DNA of 64,000 bases from assembly GCA_023381535.1 (NCBI GenBank), contig JAMCSN010000003.1:1-64000 (forward strand), in the 5' to 3' direction. Position 1 is the stretch's first letter, and every line of letters starts with the position of its first letter. This DNA is from Bacteroidota bacterium (GTDB lineage Bacteria > Bacteroidota > Ignavibacteria > Ignavibacteriales > Melioribacteraceae). A program made the translations under genes and the position numbers. Below the pieces are notes generated by a model that was not told the origin of the DNA, searched no databases, and worked only from the letters and a program-made list of their open reading frames with translations. Shown here piece after piece: positions 47,934 through 60,816 of the stretch.

Positions 47934-49850
47934 TTAAGCTATATAGCTTCCCCGTTTAACATAATGAGTGTGTAAAAGTTTATGGGATAGCTGTCCGCTG
48001 GGTCCTTCCGTTAGAAATTCCTCATAGATTCTTTGAACATGCGGGTTATCGTGCGACTTTCTGATTTCCAACGATTCATCTTCGGAATAAATTGCTTGAG
48101 CGCGTTTTTGTCTTATCTCAGGAGTTGTAGGAATTGGTTGACCTCCGCCGCCCAAACATCCGCCCGGACAAGCCATGAATTCAATGAAATGACATTCGGA
48201 GAATTTTCCGCCGGCTTTTATGTCGTCCATAATTTTTTTTGCGTTTGCGGTTCCGTGTGCAACAGCAATTTTCAGTGTAGCGCCTTTCAGCCAGTTCCAA
48301 TCATGAATAAGATGTTTTAAAATTGCCGGTACCGGTCCCACATGATCGCCGATAGGAATTTCCATGTATTTAGTTCCTTCAAATCCGCGCAACGGAATTA
48401 TGTTTGCATTCGCGAAGATGTCTTCTGTCTTTTTGCCCAATACAAATTCAACAACAGAGCGAATTGCTGCTTCCATAACTCCGCCAGTTGCACCGAATAT
48501 TAATCCAGCGCCAGATGCTTCGCCGAACGGAGAATCAAAATCGCTCTTTGGCATTTCCGGTAAATTGATACCGGCTTCTTTAATCATTCTGGCAAGTTCG
48601 CGGGTTGTCAATCCGTAATCGACATCTTTGAATCCGCTTGCATGCATCTCCGGTCTATTGCATTCGAATTTTTTTGCAGAACACGGCATTACGGCAACAG
48701 AAATGATATCTGCCGGATCAATTCCGTTTTTCTCGGCATAAAATGTTTTTATCAATGCGCCAAACATTTGCTGCGGAGATTTTGCAGTTGATAAGTTTTC
48801 AATGTACTCGGGATAGTAATGTTCCAAAAATTTTACCCAGCCCGGCGAACATGAAGTAAACTGCGGCAATGCAACATCTTGTTTTTTGACCAACGCTTTG
48901 TACAAGCGAGTTATTAGTTCGGTGCCTTCTTCTATAATGGTTAAGTCGGCAGTAAAATTCGTATCGAACACTTTATTAAAACCGATTCTTCGTAAAGCCG
49001 TATTCATTTCGCGAGTCATCGAAGTTCCGGCGGGCAAACCGAACTCCTCTCCAATTGCAGCGCGAGGTGAAGGCGCAGTTTGAATCACAACATGTTTCTT
49101 CGGGTCGTCAATAGCAGCCCAAATGCGGTCCGAGGGATCGTTAGCACGCAATGCTGATGTGGGACAGCGGTTAATGCATTGACCGCAATTAATACATATA
49201 ACATCCGCCAACGGTTTGTTCATGAACGTGCTTATGTGAGTTTTGGAACCTCTATCGATTGCCTCAAGAACACCAACCTCTTGCAGATCGATGCAAGTTC
49301 TTACGCACCGTTTACAAAGGACGCATTTGTTCATATCTCTAACTACAGAGAAAGATGAATTATCAATTTCGTATTTCGGTTTTTCGATGTGACCAAATGT
49401 TAGGTTATCAACTCCGTATTCTTTTGCCAACGCTTGAAGTTCACACTTCCCGTTTCTGAAACACGAATAACATTCTCCGTAATGTTCGCTCAGCATCAAA
49501 TCGATTATGTGTCTGCGCGCTTTACGCACCATTGGCGTGGAAGTTTTTATTTTAATCGGAGAAGTAATTGGAAATGCACACGATGCTTGCAGAGTTCTCA
49601 TCCCTTCAACTTCAACGACACAAATTCTGCAAACACCAGCAACGCACAAATCTTCATGATGACAAAGTGTTGGAATACTTATCCCGTTTTGTTTGCATGC
49701 TTCAAGAATTGTTGTGCCGAGCGGAACGACAACTTTCTTTTCATTTATCTGAACCGAAACAGTTCCTCCGATTGTAGTGAGGTCTGTTGGTTTTTCAATC
49801 TTCAATGGCTTTTGACTTACCGGTGCTCTCAGTTTGTTTTTACTTTCCAT
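47934..49850 (-). CDS. hydA: [FeFe] hydrogenase catalytic subunit, NuoG/HydA type
   Basis: A 638-residue hydrogenase with four N-terminal clusters: a [2Fe-2S] site (Cys63, 74, 77, 91), a His-Cys3 [4Fe-4S] site (His123, Cys127, 130, 136), and two ferredoxin-type [4Fe-4S] sites (Cys176-186 and 219-229). The H-cluster motifs are TSCSPGW (Cys334), MPCSAKKFECNRPE (Cys390) and FMACPGGCLGGGGQP (Cys561, 565). The first normally reads TSCCPxW; here the second Cys is Ser. ATG 49850 is chosen because GGAGG lies just upstream. It overlaps the NuoF-like gene by 11 nt. Group A3-like, NAD-linked or bifurcating activity is inferred. Confidence 0.94.
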   Translation of the reverse strand: MESKNKLRAPVSQKPLKIEKPTDLTTIGGTVSVQINEKKVVVPLGTTILEACKQNGISIPTLCHHEDLCVAGVCRICVVEVEGMRTLQASCAFPITSPIKIKTSTPMVRKARRHIIDLMLSEHYGECYSCFRNGKCELQALAKEYGVDNLTFGHIEKPKYEIDNSSFSVVRDMNKCVLCKRCVRTCIDLQEVGVLEAIDRGSKTHISTFMNKPLADVICINCGQCINRCPTSALRANDPSDRIWAAIDDPKKHVVIQTAPSPRAAIGEEFGLPAGTSMTREMNTALRRIGFNKVFDTNFTADLTIIEEGTELITRLYKALVKKQDVALPQFTSCSPGWVKFLEHYYPEYIENLSTAKSPQQMFGALIKTFYAEKNGIDPADIISVAVMPCSAKKFECNRPEMHASGFKDVDYGLTTRELARMIKEAGINLPEMPKSDFDSPFGEASGAGLIFGATGGVMEAAIRSVVEFVLGKKTEDIFANANIIPLRGFEGTKYMEIPIGDHVGPVPAILKHLIHDWNWLKGATLKIAVAHGTANAKKIMDDIKAGGKFSECHFIEFMACPGGCLGGGGQPIPTTPEIRQKRAQAIYSEDESLEIRKSHDNPHVQRIYEEFLTEGPSGQLSHKLLHTHYVKRGSYIA

Positions 49851-51045
49851 AAGATCCTCCGTTGCCATCGAAAATTTCCTCCTTAAAATTATCCAGTATT
49901 GATATGAACGAGTTTGGACTCGACTGACCCAACCCGCATTTGGACGCAATCTGCATCGTTCTGCCAAGTTCTTTAAGCTGGTTTAGATATGAGAAAGTGC
50001 ACTCGCCTCTTTCAAGCTTCTCTATGCCTTCCAATAATTTTACATTCCCAATTCTGCACGGCGTACATTGGCCGCACGATTCTTCAACAAAAAATTCCAT
50101 AAAATTTTTTAGTACATGAAGCATGTTTCTGCTTTCGTTAAAAATCATAATTGACCCGCCGGTTGCAGCGTCTTCGTATGCGAGGACTCTGTTGAATCCC
50201 GATTTCGGAATGCAAGTACCTGAGGCTCCGCCGACTTGCACTGCTTTAGCATTCTTCGCTCCAACGATTTCCAGCAATTCCGTTATGCGCGTTCCCCACG
50301 GAAGTTCATACACACCGGGTTTCTCGCAATCGCCGGAAACGGAAAACAATTTTGATCCGGTAGATTTATCGGTCCCGTATTTCTTGAACCACAATCCGCC
50401 TTTTGTAATTATATGTGGTACTGACGCCAATGTTTCTACGTTGTTAACCACTGTCGGTGCACCCATAAAACCAGTGTTAACTGGATACGGTGGGCGGTTG
50501 CGGGCTTCGCCTCTATTTCCTTCAAGTGATTCAATCAATGCGGTTTCCTCGCCGCATACGTATGCGCCACTGCCCATTCGAATGGTAATATCAAAATTGA
50601 AATTCTTTTTGTTCAGAATTTCTCTGCCGAGCAGTTTATCTTTTCTCATTTCTTGCAGATAATCTTCAAGAGATTTTTTCATGTATTCGTATTCGCCACG
50701 AAGATAAATTATTCCGTTCTCGGCGCCGATCGTGTATCCGGCTACTACCATTCCGTCGAGTACCAGTTCGGGAAATTCTAAAAGCAAAACTCTATCTTTG
50801 AAAGTACCGGGCTCACCCTCGTCGGCATTACAGATAACATATTTCGTTTTCGAAGTTGCAGCTGCAACGATTGTCCATTTTGTTGCCGTTGGGAATCCCG
50901 CGCCGCCTCTTCCTTTCAATTTCGATTCGCGCAGTTCGAATAAAATATCTTCACGCGATTGCGATAAAGCTTTTTTAATCGCTTCACCTCTTGCGTATTT
51001 CGAAAAGAGAACTGTCCCTTTTCTATCTTTTTTTTCTTGGTTCAT
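49840..51045 (-). CDS. hydB: NuoF-like flavoprotein subunit of the hydrogenase
   Basis: A 401-residue subunit expected to bind FMN, NAD(P)H and one [4Fe-4S] cluster. Motifs: GRGGAGFPTATKW near the N-terminus (NADH site), CNADEGEPGTFKDR (FMN), GAYVCGEETALIESLEG, and ESCGQCTPCRIG with a fourth Cys in SKCGLGQ. Unlike HydB of Thermotoga it lacks the N-terminal thioredoxin-like [2Fe-2S] domain and the C-terminal ferredoxin domain, so it is the minimal NuoF form. Translation overlaps hydC by one base. Confidence 0.92.
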   Translation of the reverse strand: MNQEKKDRKGTVLFSKYARGEAIKKALSQSREDILFELRESKLKGRGGAGFPTATKWTIVAAATSKTKYVICNADEGEPGTFKDRVLLLEFPELVLDGMVVAGYTIGAENGIIYLRGEYEYMKKSLEDYLQEMRKDKLLGREILNKKNFNFDITIRMGSGAYVCGEETALIESLEGNRGEARNRPPYPVNTGFMGAPTVVNNVETLASVPHIITKGGLWFKKYGTDKSTGSKLFSVSGDCEKPGVYELPWGTRITELLEIVGAKNAKAVQVGGASGTCIPKSGFNRVLAYEDAATGGSIMIFNESRNMLHVLKNFMEFFVEESCGQCTPCRIGNVKLLEGIEKLERGECTFSYLNQLKELGRTMQIASKCGLGQSSPNSFISILDNFKEEIFDGNGGSYGK

Positions 51046-51518
51046 TATTTCACCTCGCCAAGAATCTGAATCGCTTTTTCCGGCGTCACTTTTGAATAGA
51101 CTCTTTCATTTATCAACAACACTGGTCCTTGATCGCACATACCAAGACAATTAACATATTCGAGAGTGAACTTGCCGTCTTTTGTTGTCTCGCCGAATGT
51201 AATTCCCAATTCCCGTTCAACAGCTTTAACAACGGATTTTTTTCCAAAAAGATCACACGCAATTGTCTGGCAAAGACGCACAATGTTTCGTCCTTTCGGC
51301 TGCGTATTCAAGAAAGAATAAAAACTGATTACACTGTAAACTTCAACGGGATGGATTCCCAGCAAACGTGCAACTTCCTGCTGCGCGAAATCTGGAATGT
51401 GTTTATGCTTTCTATGAATATCCTGAAGAATAGGAAGCAGCGAAGATCTATTATTGCCGTACTTCGCAACGAGTTGTTCGATCTCTTCTGTCATAGCATT
51501 TTTTTCGAAGACTAACAT
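51045..51518 (-). CDS. hydC: NuoE-like [2Fe-2S] subunit of the hydrogenase
   Basis: A 157-residue thioredoxin-like ferredoxin. LVAKYGNNRSSLLPILQDIH leads to ligands in RLCQTIACDLFG (Cys-x5-Cys region) and NCLGMCDQGP. It should carry electrons between the flavin subunit and HydA. It overlaps the response-regulator gene and hydB by a base each. Confidence 0.92.
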   Translation of the reverse strand: MLVFEKNAMTEEIEQLVAKYGNNRSSLLPILQDIHRKHKHIPDFAQQEVARLLGIHPVEVYSVISFYSFLNTQPKGRNIVRLCQTIACDLFGKKSVVKAVERELGITFGETTKDGKFTLEYVNCLGMCDQGPVLLINERVYSKVTPEKAIQILGEVK

Positions 51519-51901
51519 TAGCGTACCTCCTCAACTCTTTGCAGCAAGTTTGTAACCTTAGCTATCAGTTCTTCAGGTGAAATTGGTTTCTCAACAAAAT
51601 CATCGACCGGCACCATTTCGCTTTTCCCGAAATCCATTCCAATCGCTTTCGAAACAGAAGTGTACATCAGAATCGGCGTTTTTATTTTTTCCTTACGAAG
51701 TTTTTGTGCCATAAAAAATCCATCGTCGGGTTCATCCATCATAACATCAAGAATTATCAGATCGGGTTTTTTCTCCATTATAATTTTGTATCCGTCCTCC
51801 GGATTTGTAGCCGTAACAATATCATATCCCTTTGACCTTAACACCAAACTGCTGGCATCCACGATATCCGGATCGTCATCAATAACTGCTATTAGCGCCA
51901 T
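51518..51901 (-). CDS. CheY-like single-domain response regulator
   Basis: A 127-residue receiver domain without an output domain. Acidic pocket Asp8-Asp10, phosphoacceptor Asp52 (LIILDVMMDEPDD), the Ser/Thr in MYTSVSK and Lys in VEKPISPEE are present. It is the first gene of the hydrogenase operon and overlaps hydC by one base. The coupling suggests redox or post-translational control of the enzyme or its regulation through a partner, but no partner kinase is proven. Confidence 0.9.
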   Translation of the reverse strand: MALIAVIDDDPDIVDASSLVLRSKGYDIVTATNPEDGYKIIMEKKPDLIILDVMMDEPDDGFFMAQKLRKEKIKTPILMYTSVSKAIGMDFGKSEMVPVDDFVEKPISPEELIAKVTNLLQRVEEVR

Positions 51902-52899: not shown

Positions 52900-53547
52900 T
52901 TATTTTCGTGATATCGATCCGACACCTGAAACATTCGTTCTTGTTTTCTGAGGATCACCGTAATAATCGATTGACCCGACACCTGAAACTGACGCATCTA
53001 AAGATTCTTTCGCAAAAACATCCGCACTAGCAGCACCGCTTACGCTTACTCTCACAATATTAGCTTTCAAATCTTTCGCATCAAGACTTCCAGCACCCGA
53101 TAGCTCCACATCAAATCTGTCAGCAGTGCCGTCAACATAAACGTGTCCTGCTCCGCTCAGATCGATTGAAAAATTATCTGTGTTCACACCGATGACTGAA
53201 ATATTATTCGCGCCGGAAACATCAACAGATCTTAAATCGGGAGTTGTAACATCAATAAGAATTTCTTTTCGCGGAGAGATGTTTTTCTTCGTATCAATAG
53301 ACAAGGTATTACCTTTTACATTGGTTCGAATGAAATACAAAAGATTTTCTTCAGCAGAAATCTTAAGTGATGGCGCAGAACCGACATGCACACGGATTGT
53401 AAAAGCTCCGCCAGCATCCAAGTTTTGAAATTCCTGAATGTTTCTGGTTTCTTGTTTCACTTTCCCGTTGCCTCTTATACCCCAAAAACCACAACCACTA
53501 ACAACGAATCCTAAAATCAATGAGACGGCAATCAATTTAGCTTTCAT
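52900..53547 (-). CDS. DUF2807 (head GIN domain) lipoprotein
   Basis: A 215-residue secreted lipoprotein: signal peptide AKLIAVSLILGFVVSGC with lipobox VSGC, so Cys19 would be lipidated. The body is a series of beta strands punctuated by DVSGANNI, DLSGAGHV, ELSGAGSL, SVSGAAS, SVSGVGS turns, the pattern of this domain, expected to form a beta-helix. Function unknown; common in Bacteroidota. It has its own terminator and is flanked by unrelated genes. Confidence 0.9.
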   Translation of the reverse strand: MKAKLIAVSLILGFVVSGCGFWGIRGNGKVKQETRNIQEFQNLDAGGAFTIRVHVGSAPSLKISAEENLLYFIRTNVKGNTLSIDTKKNISPRKEILIDVTTPDLRSVDVSGANNISVIGVNTDNFSIDLSGAGHVYVDGTADRFDVELSGAGSLDAKDLKANIVRVSVSGAASADVFAKESLDASVSGVGSIDYYGDPQKTRTNVSGVGSISRK

Positions 53548-53644
53548 GATAGTTTCCTCAAATCTTTACTTTTTTAGACGTAAAGAATGCTTTATGGTTT
53601 CATATAAAAATGACCAAATTCACTTATAGCAATTCTTTAGTTAA

Positions 53645-53671
53645 TTGTCTTAACTTATTATATTAAGTTTG
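53645..53671 (+). promoter_or_regulatory. possible promoter of the TPR-AAA gene
   Basis: TAAGTTTG (53664-53671) fits the TAnnTTTG box and lies 37 nt before the GTG start; TTG at 53645 is about the right distance upstream for a weak -35. An AACTTA/TAAGTT inverted pair overlaps it. Confidence 0.3.
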
Positions 53672-53707
53672 TAAAATTAATAAAGCAAATTATTCCGATA
53701 AACTATT

Positions 53708-56700
53708 GTGTTCGATGAAGAATTAAATAAGCTGCAATCAGAAGCGTACGAGCATCTGTGGAACGGACGCTTCCGTTTGGCACTTAATGCGGCTGAGAAA
53801 GTTTATCAATCGAGACCGGACGACAGCGAGTCTGCCATCTGCTTGGCTTGGGCGTTGCTCGAAAACGGTAACCCCATGAAAGCGATGGAATACGCCAATC
53901 TTGCAGTTGAACTGAAAGGCGATTCCATCAAAGCAAAAGTCTATAGAGCTTACCTACTCTACCGCATGAGCATCTTCGAAGGCGCCATTGCTGATATTGA
54001 TCAATCCATCGAACAGCAGAAATCAATTCTCACCTGGACATACTTGAACAAGTCGAAATCGCTCGCCGGACTTCGGAAATTTGAAGAAGCTTACGACGCT
54101 ATTAAACTTGGGATTTCAATCGACCCTAACAAGAAAAAAACTTTTGATGAGATTAAAGATTTAATTAAGGAAGCTGAAGCCCTCTATGCCTATTCGAAAG
54201 ATTTCAACGCCAAAGACGTAGCACGTTATTTAGCTCTTGCTAACAGGGCGATTAAATCCAAAGAGTATTGGTTTTCTCTTCTTGTCACGCGTAAGATTCT
54301 TGAAAAGGTGAAAAATGACGAAGCTGAATTGATTGAACTTGAATCCATGCTTCACCTTTTCCAGTTAAAACCGGCATTGAAAAAAGCAGAAATTCTTTTT
54401 AACAAGCACAAAAAGAATCCCCGGTTCAACAATATTTACAATGCTCTCAAAAAGTATTCACAACTTGAACAAGAGTACGAAATAGTTCCGCAACCGAAAC
54501 GAAAAACCTCGGATAGAAAAACTGATGAAACTAGAAAAACGCCTACTCATGAAATTGCATCTTTTAAACATCATTCAGCTTTTTACCCGAACGATTACGT
54601 AGATGTGTTTTCAATAAAAATGTTCGATGTGGATGAAGAAACCAATACCGGCAGACGCAGCTATTACAAAACTTTGGATACGAGGGTTCCTGTAATTGGT
54701 GCGGAAGTTATTTTTAACAATCCGTTCTTCAGAAAACTAGATAAGAATTACAGCGGAACAGCAGTTTGGTATCTCAACGATTTTGAAATTGCTCGCAACG
54801 ACTTCAAACTTAATGTGCATAAAGATTGGGATTCGGTAATCTTCGTACAAACTATTGGTTCCGATAACTCTACATGGAAAATTGGACAAGCTAGAGTCGA
54901 GATTTATATAAATCATTTTAAGATTGCGGAAAAATATTTTGGTATAAATACTCAGAAGATTGTTGAAACAACCGAACCACCATTCGCACCGGAGACAAAA
55001 TCGGAAAAACCGGCGGTAGAGAAAACACAAATCGTAGAGAAAAAACCGCGCGAAGTAAAACCGTTACCCGAATTATTGGCTGACTTGGATAAGTTCATAG
55101 GTCTTTCGAGCATCAAAGAAGCTGTTAAAAGTTTTGTCGCTTATCTCGAATTTTTGAAAGAAAGAAAACGCCTCGGCTTGAAAGCTGAGGATAAAATTGC
55201 TATCAATGCAGTGTTTCTTGGAAATCCCGGCACGGGTAAAACTACAATTGCACGAATGCTCGGCGATATTTTTTACGCGATGGGAATTTTACCAAGCGGT
55301 CACGTAATCGAGGTCGATCGTTCCGCGCTCGTTGGTCAATACATCGGCGAGACAGCACAAAAGACAGAAAAAATTATTAACGATGCAATCGGCGGTATTT
55401 TGTTTATCGATGAAGCGTACACGCTGATCAAGAAAGGCGGCAGTCAAGATTTTGGTCAAGAAGCAATCGACATACTTCTCAAACGCATGGAAGACCGCAA
55501 AGGCGAATTCGTTGTTATCGTTGCCGGCTACCCGGAAGAAATGAATTCGTTTCTCACTTCCAACCCCGGGTTAAAATCCAGATTTAATCACACATTTGTT
55601 TTTGAAGATTACACACCGGATGAACTGCTTGCAATTTTCAAACTGCAGCTCTTAAAGGAAGAATATAAAGCAAACGAAGAAGCTGAAGAAATAATTAAGA
55701 AGGAACTTGTTTCCTTATACAGAGGACGTGATAAATCGTTCGGGAACGCGCGCATCGCGAAAAAACTTTTCGAAGATTTGAAAATCACACTCAGCAAATT
55801 ATATCTAGAACTGCCGGAAGAAAAACGAACGAAAGAATTTCTAACTACATTCAACAAAGATGTGGTAGAACGAATACTTATCAAGAGCGCTGCAAAACAA
55901 GTCAAAATTCCTATTAACGAAGAAGCGTTGAAAGAAGCTCTTGATGAACTTCAAAAACTTGTCGGACTGTCGGCAATCAAAAAACAAATTGACGAAATGG
56001 TAAAACTTGCCCGCTACCTTGACGAGCAGGGCGAAGACATAAAAAAAATATTCACCGAACACATTTTGTTTTTAGGCAATCCCGGCACTGGTAAAACAAC
56101 GGTTGCAAGAATTTACGGAAAAATCTATTCGGCATTGGGAATTCTTCCCAAAGGACATTTAGTTGAAACTGACCGACAAGGTTTGGTTGCCGGTTACGTT
56201 GGACAGACAGCGGAAAAAACAACTGCGATCATCGACAAGTCGATCGGCGGAATGCTTTTCCTCGATGAAGCGTACGCACTCATTAAATCCGGCGATTCAG
56301 GAAATGATTTCGGCAAAGAAGCGATTGACATACTTCTGAAGAGAATGGAAGACGACCGGGGCAAGTTCATTGTGATTGCCGCCGGATACACAGACGAAAT
56401 GAACCGTTTCATTGCGAGTAATCCCGGTATGCAGTCGCGGTTCAGCAAATCATTTTTCTTCGAAGACTACTCCCCTTCCGAATTGATGGAAATTGCAAAA
56501 CGTTCTCTTGCAAGAGACAAAAAAGTTTTATCCGGAAGCGCCGAAGAGAAGTTGTTTAAACACTTTGAGGATTTGTTTAAGAACCGCGACAAGAAATTCG
56601 GCAACGCAAGAATTGTACGCAACATTCTCGAAGCGGTAAAACAAAAAATGCTACTGCGTCTTTCCGATTTGCCTGCAACTGAAAGAACAGAAGAAAAGCA

Positions 56701-57592
56701 CTACACTGTTGAAGGAACCGACATATCGGAAGTTCTCACACAAGAAATTGAAGCTAAACAGTTTGAAGTGAAGGGCGATCCGCTTATTCTTCAAGAGCAC
56801 ATAAACGAACTGAACAAACTGATCGGTCTCGAAGATGTTAAAAAAGAAATTTACAAGCTGATAAGCTTTTTCAAAATATCCCAGTTAAAAAAAGAAAAGG
56901 GATTACATTCCGTAGAGCGAAATTTAAATTCTATTTTCATTGGCAACGAAGGCGTAGGCAAACGAACCGTTGTGAATATTCTAGCAAAGATTCTTAAAGA
57001 ACTTGGCGTGCTAAAGAAAGAACAGGTTGTTGAAGTTGAACGCCATGATTTGATAGGCGGTTATCCCGGACAAACTGAAATTAAAACCGACAAAGTGATT
57101 CAGCAGGCTTTCGGCGGAATTTTATTTGTAAAAGATGCAAAAGCACTTTTCGACGACAATTCATTCGGCAAAGAAGCCGTTGATACAATCTTCAAAAGGT
57201 TGTACGATTATAAAAGCAAATTCATACTTATTTTGTCCGGCACTAAAAGTGAAATGGAATTAATTTTTAAAGCCGATCCTTCAATTAAGGCAAAGCTTCC
57301 AAACCATTTTTATTTTGAAGATTTTACACCGCGTGAGATGCTTGGAATCGCATCAAACATTGCCGAGAAAAAGGGCTATTGCTTGGACGAAGGTGCTTTG
57401 CAAGAACTGCTGGATTTATTTTCGAAACTCTCCAATTCCACCAAAGAACATTTTAAGAACGTCGTATTGGCTAAGCATTTGTTCTATGCCGCAGTTACCA
57501 ACCAGGAAGAAAGAATTTTCAATATGTACGAACAAAACGATGTTGACCTCACTACAATAACGTTGGAAGACGTTGAAAATATAAATTTATAA
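53708..57592 (+). CDS. TPR protein with three CbxX/SpoVK-type AAA+ domains
   Basis: A 1294-residue protein. Residues 1 to about 250 are TPR helices (AMEYANLAVELKGD, FEEAYDAIKLGISIDPN). Residues about 290-420 form a beta-rich unit of unknown family (GTAVWYLNDFEIARNDFKLN). Then come three AAA+ modules of the CbxX/CfqX type. Module 1: Walker A GNPGTGKT 505-512, Walker B Asp568-Glu569, arginine finger in KSRFN. Module 2: Walker A 790-797, Asp853-Glu854, QSRFS. Module 3: GNEGVGKR 1079-1086, but Lys1142-Asp1143 replaces Asp-Glu and the finger is lost (AKLPN), so it is probably inactive. EccA of type VII secretion and SpoVK share the TPR-AAA or AAA type. GTG 53708 is the start. A two-gene ABC exporter follows. 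Confidence 0.9.
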   Translation: MFDEELNKLQSEAYEHLWNGRFRLALNAAEKVYQSRPDDSESAICLAWALLENGNPMKAMEYANLAVELKGDSIKAKVYRAYLLYRMSIFEGAIADIDQSIEQQKSILTWTYLNKSKSLAGLRKFEEAYDAIKLGISIDPNKKKTFDEIKDLIKEAEALYAYSKDFNAKDVARYLALANRAIKSKEYWFSLLVTRKILEKVKNDEAELIELESMLHLFQLKPALKKAEILFNKHKKNPRFNNIYNALKKYSQLEQEYEIVPQPKRKTSDRKTDETRKTPTHEIASFKHHSAFYPNDYVDVFSIKMFDVDEETNTGRRSYYKTLDTRVPVIGAEVIFNNPFFRKLDKNYSGTAVWYLNDFEIARNDFKLNVHKDWDSVIFVQTIGSDNSTWKIGQARVEIYINHFKIAEKYFGINTQKIVETTEPPFAPETKSEKPAVEKTQIVEKKPREVKPLPELLADLDKFIGLSSIKEAVKSFVAYLEFLKERKRLGLKAEDKIAINAVFLGNPGTGKTTIARMLGDIFYAMGILPSGHVIEVDRSALVGQYIGETAQKTEKIINDAIGGILFIDEAYTLIKKGGSQDFGQEAIDILLKRMEDRKGEFVVIVAGYPEEMNSFLTSNPGLKSRFNHTFVFEDYTPDELLAIFKLQLLKEEYKANEEAEEIIKKELVSLYRGRDKSFGNARIAKKLFEDLKITLSKLYLELPEEKRTKEFLTTFNKDVVERILIKSAAKQVKIPINEEALKEALDELQKLVGLSAIKKQIDEMVKLARYLDEQGEDIKKIFTEHILFLGNPGTGKTTVARIYGKIYSALGILPKGHLVETDRQGLVAGYVGQTAEKTTAIIDKSIGGMLFLDEAYALIKSGDSGNDFGKEAIDILLKRMEDDRGKFIVIAAGYTDEMNRFIASNPGMQSRFSKSFFFEDYSPSELMEIAKRSLARDKKVLSGSAEEKLFKHFEDLFKNRDKKFGNARIVRNILEAVKQKMLLRLSDLPATERTEEKHYTVEGTDISEVLTQEIEAKQFEVKGDPLILQEHINELNKLIGLEDVKKEIYKLISFFKISQLKKEKGLHSVERNLNSIFIGNEGVGKRTVVNILAKILKELGVLKKEQVVEVERHDLIGGYPGQTEIKTDKVIQQAFGGILFVKDAKALFDDNSFGKEAVDTIFKRLYDYKSKFILILSGTKSEMELIFKADPSIKAKLPNHFYFEDFTPREMLGIASNIAEKKGYCLDEGALQELLDLFSKLSNSTKEHFKNVVLAKHLFYAAVTNQEERIFNMYEQNDVDLTTITLEDVENINL

Positions 57593-57612
57593 TTTCTCTC
57601 CGCCTCTAAATT

Positions 57613-58359
57613 ATGCTTGAACTCGCAAACTTGGAAAAACGATTCGGCGATTTTACTGCCGTAAACAAGATCAATCTTAAAATTGCCGAAGGACAGTTGT
57701 ATGGATTTCTTGGTCCGAACGGAGCCGGAAAAACCACTACGATAAAAATGATTACCGGATTGCTTGCGCCGACTTCCGGAAACATTTTTCTCGACGGCGA
57801 AAACATTCTGCATCGTCCGCTCGAATCAAAAATGAAAATCGGTTACATACCAGATCAGCCGTATCTATACGATAAACTTACCGGGCGAGAATATCTTTAC
57901 TTCAGCGGCGGACTGTTCAACATCACAAAAGAAAAGCTAACAAAAGAAATTAATGAGCTTATACGCCAGCTTAAGATCGGCGATTGGATTGACAAGCGTA
58001 CCGAAGAATATTCTCAAGGAATGAAACAAAGAATTGTAATTGCATCGGCATTTTTACATAACCCGAAACTTTTAATTATTGATGAGCCGATGATCGGACT
58101 CGATCCTCAAAGCGCTTACATTGTAAAAAAACTGCTCAAAGATAAAGTCAGCGAAGGTCTAACCATTTTCATGTCAACGCACAGTTTGAATGTTGTAGAA
58201 GAAATCTGCACGCACGTGGGAATTATAAACAACGGCAATATTATTTTCGACGGCACAATTGAAATGCTTTTAAGAATGAAACAAGAGCACAACAGGAACC
58301 TTGAGAAAATATTTATCGAACTTACCGAAGAAAATGAATCAGATTATTCACATACTTAA
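57613..58359 (+). CDS. ABC transporter ATP-binding protein
   Basis: A 248-residue ATPase with Walker A GPNGAGKTTTIKMI (about 36-49), Q-loop IPDQPYLY, signature YSQGMKQRIVIASAFL, Walker B LLIIDEPMIGLD and switch His in MSTHSLNVVEE. This is an export-type (drug or Na/multidrug-like) ATPase. It precedes and overlaps its permease. Substrate unknown. Confidence 0.95.
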   Translation: MLELANLEKRFGDFTAVNKINLKIAEGQLYGFLGPNGAGKTTTIKMITGLLAPTSGNIFLDGENILHRPLESKMKIGYIPDQPYLYDKLTGREYLYFSGGLFNITKEKLTKEINELIRQLKIGDWIDKRTEEYSQGMKQRIVIASAFLHNPKLLIIDEPMIGLDPQSAYIVKKLLKDKVSEGLTIFMSTHSLNVVEEICTHVGIINNGNIIFDGTIEMLLRMKQEHNRNLEKIFIELTEENESDYSHT

Positions 58360-60022
58360 GCACAAGCTCTTAATTTTTCTCCGGCTCGAATCCAAAATTA
58401 CGCTTGCCAACACAATAAAAAATCTTGCCAGCGGATTAACTTATACCGCATTTGCAGTCGGTGCATTTCTTTTTGCCCAGCGCTTTATATGGTTTCTTCT
58501 TGTTCGAATCAAACTTGGGCTTTTTCTTTTTCACGAATTCATTTCGATAACACTCTTCATTTTCTTCTTGTCTGTAAATGTGGGAAACATAATCGTTGCA
58601 TATTCCACGTTGTACAAATCGAGTGAAGTGAATTTCTTTTTAACAAAGCCGGTTTCCCCTTCCAAAATATTTTTCATAAAATATTTGGATAATTTTTTCT
58701 ACAGTTCATCCACGTTGCTTTTGATTTTGTACGCTTCCCTAATCGGTTATGCATATTATTTTAGACTCAGTCCGCTGCAATTCATTTTACTCGCTGCCGA
58801 TTATTTCTTTTTCATTTTCAGCGCAAGCGCGCTCGGTGTCATTGTTCTTATGATTCTAGTGCGTCTTTCTCACCGTTTCGGATGGAGAAAAATCGTTTAC
58901 GCATTGGCTATCGTTTATTCGGCAATTATTTTGATTTTCTTTGCAGTCAATTCTCCAGGCACGCTTGTCAATACTGTAATCAAACTTGGCTTTGCTGTCG
59001 ATAGAGACAGATACTACGGCGAACTAATTTCGCCAATACTAACCTATCTTCCGAATCACTGGCTGTCTCAAACCGGCTACAATATTATCACCGGCAATCT
59101 TATCGAAGCGTGGAGACTTACATTGATGCAACTTGGTTTGTCGTTTATTCTGTTTGTCTCGGTAATGTTTTTAGGAAGCAGATGGTATTTATCGAGCTGG
59201 CTTTCAAATCAAAATGTTAAAACGAAAAAACAATCGGCGTCCAAGAAGATAAATCTGTTGGTCTCGTTCGGTAATAAATCCGGTTTCTTGCCCCAGACTG
59301 AATCGATAATCAAACGCGACGTTTTGGTTTTTCTCAGAGAACCGACGCAAGTAATTCATTTCTTTGTTCTTCTTTTTCTGATAATAATTTTTGTCGCTAA
59401 TGTAGCACGAACGGAATTTATCGGCACCGGAAATTTTTATCTGCAGACAATCATTTACCTTGCGACCTTCACTTTCAATCTGCTTTTGGTTACAACACTT
59501 TCGTTAAGATTTGTTTTCCCGCTGATCAGTCTCGAAGGATTGGCGTTCTGGAAAATTAAATCAGCGCCCGTCAACGCCGATTTTCTTTTGAAGAAAAAAA
59601 TTTCAGTCATCGGAATAATAATTATTTTCATCAGCATTTCGCTTGGAGTTATCACCAATCTAAAATTCGGATTACTCGTAACATCGTTTGCGCTGCTTAC
59701 AACTATTCTTGCGGCGTTGAGTATAATTTCAATCAACTTGGGAATGGGCGGTTTGTTCGCAAACTACAAGGAGAAAAACGCCATCAGGCTGGCTTCGTCG
59801 CAAGGCGCAACGCTTTCTTTCCTCTTGAGTGTTCTCTACATCGTTTTTCTAATTGTTATTGTGTTCAAACCATCGAGTGAGTTGTTTCTCTCCATAACGG
59901 TTATGCAGCCTCTTTCATTCGGTCAATTCTTCTGGCTTATAATTCCGATTTCGGTTGTATCGCTTATTATCGTAGCGGTATTTCAAAAGATGGCGTACAA
60001 ATCACTGCTAAAAGATTTTTAG
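58334..60022 (+). CDS. ABC transporter permease
   Basis: From ATG 58334 a 562-residue polytopic protein with about twelve hydrophobic segments, overlapping the ATPase by 26 nt. It starts with a basic segment MNQIIHILKHKLLIFLRL and has repeated long loops; residues around 310-330 (FLPQTESIIKRDVLVFLREP) recall the loop before the second half of ABC-2-like exporters. It resembles two fused permease halves. Substrate unknown. Confidence 0.88.
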   Translation: MNQIIHILKHKLLIFLRLESKITLANTIKNLASGLTYTAFAVGAFLFAQRFIWFLLVRIKLGLFLFHEFISITLFIFFLSVNVGNIIVAYSTLYKSSEVNFFLTKPVSPSKIFFIKYLDNFFYSSSTLLLILYASLIGYAYYFRLSPLQFILLAADYFFFIFSASALGVIVLMILVRLSHRFGWRKIVYALAIVYSAIILIFFAVNSPGTLVNTVIKLGFAVDRDRYYGELISPILTYLPNHWLSQTGYNIITGNLIEAWRLTLMQLGLSFILFVSVMFLGSRWYLSSWLSNQNVKTKKQSASKKINLLVSFGNKSGFLPQTESIIKRDVLVFLREPTQVIHFFVLLFLIIIFVANVARTEFIGTGNFYLQTIIYLATFTFNLLLVTTLSLRFVFPLISLEGLAFWKIKSAPVNADFLLKKKISVIGIIIIFISISLGVITNLKFGLLVTSFALLTTILAALSIISINLGMGGLFANYKEKNAIRLASSQGATLSFLLSVLYIVFLIVIVFKPSSELFLSITVMQPLSFGQFFWLIIPISVVSLIIVAVFQKMAYKSLLKDF

Positions 60023-60816
60023 CTCTGAGCCGCCTTCTTGCTGTACAACGCCGATGTAATCCAGCCGGAAATAATCACGGTTAATTTTCTTGTTGAAAAC
60101 TTCGACGAAACTGAAAGCGCTTTGTTGTAAAATCCATCTACCACACTTGTCTTTTTGCCCAACGCCTTCAACGCAGTTGTAACAACTTGTTCCGCCGTTC
60201 TCGGCACGGAACCCATCGCCGAATTTGCTATTCTATGAAATTCCGTTGCGGTTCCTCCCGGGTTCAGCGAAAGCACATCGATGTTATGTTTCCTTAATTC
60301 ATACCAAAGTGACTCGCCAAGATAAGCGTTGAATACTTTAGTAGCGGAGTACGTTGCCATGAATGGTGTCGGCTGAAAAGCGACCAAACTTCCAAGAAAA
60401 ATTACGGCTCCTTTTTTCCTTTTAACCATTTTCGGCACAAAATGATGAGTTAAAATTGTCGGCGCAACACAATTTACTTTTACCATTTTCGTTTCGTGGT
60501 CGGCATCCGCATTGATAAATTCTCCGTTGGAGCCGAAACCGGCGTTGTTAATTAAAATTCCGACTTCCCTATTGCCGACTTTTTCTTTTAGTGCCGTCAA
60601 AAAATCATCTTGAGATAAATCAACCGGCGCTATTACCGTTTCTATACCGTATGCTTTGCTCAACTCCGCTGAAAGTTTTTCCAGACGCTCTCTTCTTCTG
60701 GCAACGAGAATTAAATTTATTTTTTCTTTCGCGAGTCTTTTCGTAAACTCTTCACCAATACCGGATGATGCGCCGGTAATCAGTGCCCAATCGCCGTATT
60801 TTTCTTTCATTGTCAT
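60019..60816 (-). CDS. short-chain dehydrogenase/reductase
   Basis: A 265-residue SDR with TGASSGIG (14-21), LVARRRERLEKL (Arg after the second strand suggests NADP), NNAG (90-93) and Tyr156-Lys160 in YSATK. Related to the DltE/YqjQ-like oxidoreductases. Substrate unknown. ATG 60810 is an alternative start. Its stop overlaps the convergent permease by 4 nt. Confidence 0.92.
   Translation of the reverse strand: MTMKEKYGDWALITGASSGIGEEFTKRLAKEKINLILVARRRERLEKLSAELSKAYGIETVIAPVDLSQDDFLTALKEKVGNREVGILINNAGFGSNGEFINADADHETKMVKVNCVAPTILTHHFVPKMVKRKKGAVIFLGSLVAFQPTPFMATYSATKVFNAYLGESLWYELRKHNIDVLSLNPGGTATEFHRIANSAMGSVPRTAEQVVTTALKALGKKTSVVDGFYNKALSVSSKFSTRKLTVIISGWITSALYSKKAAQS

Follow-up and report, generated by a model that had tools for sequence, protein, structure and literature searches.

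EccA (EccA1), the ATPase of type VII secretion, carries a single AAA+ module preceded by an N-terminal tetratricopeptide repeat (TPR) region. CbbX, the red-type Rubisco activase, also has one module, with neither a TPR region nor a beta sandwich. SpoVK, the Bacillus chaperone of MurG, has one module behind a short N-terminal domain, is restricted to sporulating firmicutes and belongs to a clade of dedicated chaperones (PMC10659427). The marks of the SpoVK/CbbX/EccA clade are a GY at sensor 1 and a second arginine finger at sensor 2 (PMC10659427). RNF213 and dynein carry a series of AAA+ modules on a single chain, some of them dead (PMC7311170); their six modules form one covalent ring, and each Arg finger comes from the adjacent module. 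Yta7, Abo1 and ATAD2, which possess a bromodomain, stack an active AAA1 tier on an inactive AAA2 tier within one protein (PMC9898759). Here we describe a gene in a window of 64,000 nucleotides (positions 1 to 64,000, forward strand, of contig JAMCSN010000003.1, assembly GCA_023381535.1, from a Bacteroidota bacterium of the Melioribacteraceae), the product of which joins a TPR solenoid and a beta sandwich to three AAA+ modules (M1, M2 and M3; Table 1). It shares the N-terminal TPR region and the AAA+ type with EccA but has three modules instead of one, and differs from CbbX by both the TPR region and the sandwich. As judged from sequence comparison, M3 has been switched off repeatedly among relatives and has nevertheless been kept in an otherwise conserved protein. 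Among the papers listed by our searches, none describes this triple protein to judge from titles and the beginnings of abstracts, and the architectures in figure 3A of PMC10659427 may hold one.

Architecture of the protein and state of its third module

In the full protein, Pfam recognised a TPR region, three AAA stretches and three AAA_lid_6 stretches, AAA preceding AAA_lid_6 in every module. Searched alone, the last third still matched AAA (E=6.9e-8), while its lid was barely above the threshold (24.4 bits, cut-off 24.3). Two NCBIfam models extended across three stretches each: spore_V_K (E=5e-207), which gave the best match, and T7SS_EccA (E=9.5e-181), with a lower score. The best PDB match by sequence was EccA1. 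Since spore_V_K reached such an E-value and full-length relatives exist, the identity of the triple AAA+ protein is far above chance. The sequence-only reading had proposed a TPR region, a beta-rich domain that it could not place and three CbxX-type modules in one gene; Pfam, NCBIfam and the structure model bear this out, and the observation of three AAA+ modules of SpoVK/CbbX/EccA type was confirmed at the level of the sequence. The GTG start is consistent with the N-termini of the relatives in the alignment.

The motifs of Walker A, Walker B, sensor 1, the Arg finger and sensor 2 read GNPGTGKTT, DE, GY, KSRF and FGNAR in M1, and GNPGTGKTT, DE, GY, QSRF and FGNAR in M2. Both modules therefore carry the GY signature and the sensor-2 arginine of the clade. 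By our own count, they have an Asn six residues ahead of the Arg finger, where PMC10659427 gives a spacing of four for the clade. The corresponding motifs in M3 are GNEGVGKRT, KD, GT, KAKL and FKNVV, so that Walker B, the Tyr of sensor 1, the Arg finger and the Arg of sensor 2 are all missing from this module. The earlier descriptions of M1 and M2 as intact and of M3 as dead are thus both supported by the motifs. The GxxxxGK loop reported for M3 is present as well, although its core ends at residue 1085 and residue 1086, which had been included in it, is an Arg outside the core.

A pattern search of genome contigs gave 494 hits, of which 465 encode a relative. The best 80 by score were taken as the relatives' loci; by their record titles they come from Ignavibacteria, Melioribacteraceae and Bacteroidetes or Chlorobi-group organisms, nearly all metagenome-assembled genomes, and the nearest of them is 96% identical (L001). 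A protein search gave 7972 hits among 8000 candidates scored, and the best 120 were listed. The TPR, beta, AAA, AAA, AAA plan was found in 81 of the 115 open reading frames (ORFs) bearing modules, the others being cut by locus ends or differing in module number. The SpoVK model (E 1e-25) matched in 35 of 296 genomes sampled from the phylum to which Stygiobacter (L013) belongs and, among 14 control genomes, in Bacillus subtilis only. On this sequence evidence the triple architecture is widespread in Ignavibacteria-type genomes, and because of this spread it must be old rather than an isolated duplication of the present copy. We aligned the query with the ORFs of the 80 loci and with 117 proteins from the list of 120, the three left out being longer than 1500 residues. 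Some of the resulting 198 rows are the same gene reached through two sources, and row counts are biased to close relatives because both lists hold best-scoring matches.

The Walker B of M3 is DE in 89 rows, changed in 105 and gapped in 4, that is, DE in 89 of the 194 scorable rows, whereas M1 has DE in 197 of 198 rows and M2 in every one of its 197 rows without a gap. Hereafter, a row is called live when the Walker B of M3 is DE, and this label implies nothing further. Sensor 1, the Arg finger and sensor 2 are all intact in 79 of the 89 live rows; seven others have none of the three (six changed, one gapped) and three have lost sensor 1 alone, so a few live rows may in fact be dead. Among the 105 dead rows, 84 have jointly lost the sensor-1 GY, the Arg finger and the sensor-2 Arg. 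Homologues with an intact third Walker B, which the sequence-only reading had named as evidence against it, thus exist, and the death of M3 is no trait of the whole family.

A first tree, computed from the TPR-to-M2 region with M3 excluded (186 rows: 81 live, 102 dead and 3 undetermined), needs 12 changes of the live/dead label, 9 of them forced by well-supported branches. In a second tree of 88 rows, 10 changes are needed and 7 forced. As two trees require 12 and 10 changes of state, the inactivation of M3 appears to have been repeated. A count of 15 under irreversible loss was the same at every support threshold, perhaps through ineffective collapsing of weak branches, and is not used. The clade containing the window's protein has 66 rows, 63 of them dead, none live and 3 undetermined. 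The tree was rooted at its midpoint and does not by itself tell gain from loss; we infer that a live M3 is ancestral because live rows are found to either side of the root and several motifs are unlikely to have been regained. Forty further genome regions yielded 21 triple proteins, 13 already among the 198 rows and 8 new, for a total of 206 rows. In three of these M1 or M2 is degenerate, the remaining modules being intact each time: M1 is partly so in L044, where Walker B reads DD and both the finger and sensor 2 are altered; L113 has a degenerate M2 that retains sensor 2; and in L142 both M2 and M3 are degenerate, these two modules being poorly aligned. In addition, a stop in one draft genome (L138:3276-7163, minus strand) splits M1 and M2, in a frame of 1103 residues, from a degenerate M3 in a frame of 192 residues; an assembly error is possible there.

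The resemblance to EccA raises the question of a secretion ATPase in a type VII-like system. A TPR region followed by a CbxX-type AAA+ module is the EccA plan (PMC10659427), and both the T7SS_EccA match and the EccA1 structure point the same way, but the EccA model is outscored by spore_V_K. EccC passed the cut-off in none of 14 relatives' genomes (13 weak matches, one without any) and in none of 14 controls, the neighbouring genes not having been scanned with type VII models, and EccB matched nowhere, controls included. The link to type VII secretion suggested by the sequence-only reading found no support in these searches, which are a weak test since no control was positive for either protein; we give this identity a slim chance. 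Two others were rejected. For a Rubisco activase, the RuBisCO large subunit matched in 0 of the 14 relatives' genomes, which may be incomplete, and in 5 of the 14 controls. For anti-phage defence, the PADLOC matches, to IetA, TRIP13 and mad8, do not go beyond the AAA level (best 60 bits), and the NCBIfam model IteA, with a cut-off of 510 bits, scored 48.

Retention of the inactivated module

We then compared the constraint on live and dead M3. The ratio of nonsynonymous to synonymous substitution rates (dN/dS) was tried on ten pairs, and M3 gave a finite dS in four of five pairs from the dead clade and in four of five live pairs. In the dead-clade pairs, dN/dS is 0.043, 0.161, 0.040 and 0.066 for M3, and 0.013, 0.065, 0.018 and 0.014 for M1 in the same pairs. 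In the live pairs, M3 has values of 0.030, 0.046, 0.039 and 0.037. For M3, mean pairwise identity falls from 0.69 among live rows to 0.53 among dead ones, with no drop for M1 and M2.

Within the 63 dead rows of the window's clade, the P-loop Lys of M3 is retained in 62 and the pore-loop aromatic in all 63 (99 of all 105 dead rows). The Walker B Asp has become Lys in 42 of the 63 rows and Arg in 12, and is thus basic in 54, against one of the 39 dead rows outside the clade in the tree set. The P-loop Thr position holds Arg in 34 rows, Ser in 16, Lys in 10, Thr in 2 and Asn in 1. The column of Tyr1119 aligns with the pore-loop Tyr of CbbX (Tyr114 by our own count of the numbering), a residue whose change reportedly leaves ATPase activity but abolishes the activase function (PMC5437159).

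M3 could be regarded as a functionless, decaying remnant. The joint loss of motifs in most dead rows, the lower identity of M3 alone and the draft genome in which M3 lies in a separate frame beyond a stop are what such a remnant would present. Against this, dN/dS stays at 0.04-0.16 in the dead clade (0.03-0.05 in live pairs), M3 can be scored in 63 of the 66 clade rows, and the clade has fixed residues of its own. Because of this low dN/dS, the retained P-loop Lys and pore-loop aromatic and the replacement of Asp by Lys or Arg, M3 does not seem to be decaying, and we regard the remnant as very improbable.

Ring geometry and proposed working of the protein

In AAA+ rings, the Arg finger is donated by the adjacent unit (PMC7311170). 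The sequence-only reading had proposed that the three modules lie in line, making a built-in asymmetric ring or pseudo-hexamer: two proteins would close a ring M1-M2-M3-M1-M2-M3 with a non-hydrolysing M3, as in dynein or RNF213. There are precedents for this, since red algal CbbX forms an alternating hetero-hexamer that tolerates the loss of Walker B in one isoform (PMC5437159) and RNF213 holds a dead, ATP-bound module in a one-chain ring (PMC7311170). In an alternating ring, however, a dead M3 would be expected to retain the finger with which it serves a live neighbour, while the neighbour facing the dead site would be free to lose its own. The finger of M3 is an Arg in only 10 of the 105 dead rows (another residue in 94, a gap in 1), and M1 and M2 have all scored catalytic residues, Arg fingers included, in 105 of 105. 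As this is the opposite of the prediction, an in-line mixed ring is disfavoured and stacked rings of like modules are favoured; at the level of sequence, the finger pattern is a better fit to stacked rings of one module type each, the third tier being passive, than to an in-line pseudo-hexamer.

Some relatives contain more modules. P0059 (2233 residues) has eight CbxX-type modules in line, and P0049 (2205 residues) and P0058 (2202 residues) have six each, spaced by about 275-280 residues; by eye, the N-terminal stretch of the latter two is membrane-spanning in appearance. Six others (L115, L119, L122, L125, L146 and L149) have four, five or six modules, and the models used recognise neither a TPR region nor a sandwich in them; their N-terminal module has DN at Walker B and a kept Arg finger.

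Nine proteins have at least four modules each, 49 in total; 8 of these modules are dead, and all 8 retain the Arg finger, as in-line rings require. Seven of them are N-terminal modules, probably the product of one inherited event. Together with the six- and eight-module relatives themselves, they keep the in-line ring under consideration, and we rate it as unlikely for the triple protein without dismissing it. The multi-module proteins without TPR region and sandwich, by the models used, could have a different build.

The beta domain was examined through structure prediction, no Pfam family matching residues 275-440 even at E 10. The predicted N-terminal model has a confident sandwich, with strands at 290-414 and a predicted local distance difference test (pLDDT) of 87-96 over the block. 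In a Foldseek search with this model, the only matches to the sandwich alone among the 50 rows shown were UNC119 chains (E 3.3e-5 to 1.6e-4, root-mean-square deviation (rmsd) 4.8-10.8 A, 10-13% identity). AlkC was the top match, its alignment covering the whole model with an rmsd of about 20 A. The VIA list was occupied by TPR matches and for that reason barely probed the sandwich. In our own reading of the model, the domain is an Ig-like sandwich, which we do not assign to the UNC119 family, and it is possibly a candidate binder of a peptide or lipid-peptide. A structure prediction of the three AAA+ modules, also proposed earlier, gave a predicted template modelling score (pTM) of 0.40, and the inter-module geometry was therefore rejected as evidence.

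The reading that we favour, with evenly balanced confidence, is a dedicated threading chaperone of the SpoVK/CbbX/EccA clade with a passive but still gripping third tier. The TPR solenoid and the beta sandwich would recruit the client. The protein would probably be a homo-hexamer in which each module makes its own tier, M1 and M2, with the motifs observed, acting as ATP-burning threading rings. M3 would be a former third motor, inactivated and serving as a passive tier in the window's clade. Because the P-loop and the pore-loop aromatic are retained, the likely role of M3 is to hold or guide the chain being threaded and to stabilise the ring rather than to pull. The basic Walker B and the Arg, Lys or Ser replacing the P-loop Thr suggest that a nucleotide may be held without Mg, as structural glue. 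A more specific and more doubtful version is a three-tier chaperone in which the third ring turned repeatedly, as an entire module, from motor into passive gripper and in which, in this clade, basic residues replace Mg, the nucleotide is permanent and the pore Tyr holds the client.

Several points weigh against a threading chaperone of stacked tiers. The inactive tier of Yta7 has neither nucleotide nor pore loops, unlike the proposed M3 (PMC9898759). The p97-type matches of the three-module model superpose at 19-27 A. The Arg-finger argument is indirect, as a dead module could shed its finger for other reasons, and relatives with 4, 5, 6 and 8 modules are not easily reconciled with one tier per module. 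Moreover, the M3 of dead pairs evolves faster than M1 and is less conserved than live M3, and many loci lack the adjacent ABC ATPase described below.

If the stacked chaperone holds true, relatives with an intact M3 serve as natural controls. In RNF213, Yta7 and others, the dead module has long been fixed in that state; in the present family, one and the same module is live in part of the relatives and dead in the rest, has changed state several times and has intact neighbouring modules. This variation allows a direct comparison and a test of rings of like against unlike modules, and the retained dead module offers a natural way to learn what an inactive motor unit is for.

Gene neighbourhood and possible clients

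Table 1. Features of the AAA+ gene and of its neighbours in the window
Feature	Position	Strand	Basis or remark
TPR-beta sandwich-triple AAA+ protein	53708..57592	+	single unbroken ORF, GTG start, 1294 aa
TPR solenoid, residues 3-259	53714..54484	+	Pfam ANAPC3/TPR; model helices 3-259; TPR-protein structural matches
Beta sandwich, residues about 288-419	54569..54964	+	no Pfam family; predicted-structure strands 290-414
AAA+ module M1, residues 452-700	55061..55807	+	every scored catalytic motif present
AAA+ module M2, residues 737-985	55916..56662	+	every scored catalytic motif present
AAA+ module M3, residues 1026-1270	56783..57517	+	dead by catalytic motif
M3 P-loop GNEGVGKRT, residues 1079-1087	56942..56968	+	Lys retained, next Thr replaced by Arg1086
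M3 pore-loop Tyr1119	57062..57064	+	aligned to CbbX pore-loop Tyr
M3 Walker B site, Lys1142-Asp1143 instead of Asp-Glu	57131..57136	+	motif alignment
M3 Arg-finger site, KLPN 1196-1199 instead of SRF	57293..57304	+	motif alignment
ABC transporter ATPase	57613..58359	+	starts 20 bases past the AAA+ stop
ABC permease PF16949	58334..60022	+	alternative upstream TTG start at 58301
DUF2807 protein, divergent, upstream	52900..53547	-	in 33 of the 71 loci whose upstream sequence reaches at least 700 bases

The AAA+ gene is followed by the ATPase and permease genes of a putative ATP-binding cassette (ABC) exporter, and it probably forms one operon with the ATPase gene. A scan of 53400-60200 gave 13 promoter-like sites (13.6 expected) and 3 terminator-like sites (7.1 expected), and is uninformative. 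The ABC pair, noted earlier as a neighbour, proved to be retained in a good part of the family: among the 80 loci, an ABC ATPase is adjacent on the same strand in 30 of the 70 with at least 900 bases downstream (15 of 23 with a dead M3, 14 of 46 with a live one and 1 of 1 undetermined), and both ATPase and permease are present in 29 of the 68 with at least 1800 bases downstream. The permease was found in 9 of 14 genomes searched, in one copy each and beside the AAA+ gene in 9 of 9. In the phylum sample, uncorrected for kinship, 15 of the 35 AAA-positive genomes have it, against 18 of the 261 AAA-negative ones, and it adjoins the AAA+ gene in 13 of the 15. The neighbourhood suggests, without showing so, a chaperone working with an envelope transporter. 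Since an ABC gene adjoins, the client may be the transporter or an envelope partner; this is the weakest step of the proposal. Since the adjacent ABC ATPase is missing in 40 of 70 loci, and a search at E 1e-8 found no such permease in 5 of 14 genomes, the AAA+ protein must also work where the ABC pair is absent.

Other neighbours are also kept. groES-groEL lie directly upstream on the same strand in eight loci (checked with Pfam in L029 only), including L032, where the order is groES-groEL-AAA-ABC-permease. A relative without TPR region, with a beta domain and two modules of which the second is dead (L137), has the same gene order as L032. Several relatives keep the order hydrogenase-like set, purE, DUF2807, AAA+ gene. 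The ABC pair and groES-groEL could accordingly be passengers of a stable gene order, the client being cytosolic. In the two AAA-negative genomes examined for this (L157 and L159), groEL is directly followed by the ABC pair, and in relatives of the AAA+ locus the hydrogenase-like genes and purE are retained as neighbours too. Against this, the adjacency of permease and AAA+ gene in nearly all permease-holding genomes with the AAA+ gene in both sets, and the recurrence of the permease at loci with different upstream neighbours, are not what passengers would give. We consider this explanation possible, though somewhat doubtful.

In two other AAA-negative genomes (L160 and L163), the ABC pair lies downstream of GMP synthase and, in L160, upstream of a periplasmic-binding-type protein. 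In the window itself, 47934-51901 (minus strand) holds a trimeric hydrogenase-like gene set and a response regulator, named by eye from their sequence. Finally, a paralogue of the triple protein (L056:139-7702) lies beside a multi-PAS histidine kinase, hemerythrin, a SpoIIE-type response regulator, DUF6272 and SiaC, a signalling neighbourhood that resembles a partner-switch-like cluster, and five other loci (L040, L048, L052, L063 and L073) have two gene clusters in common with it.

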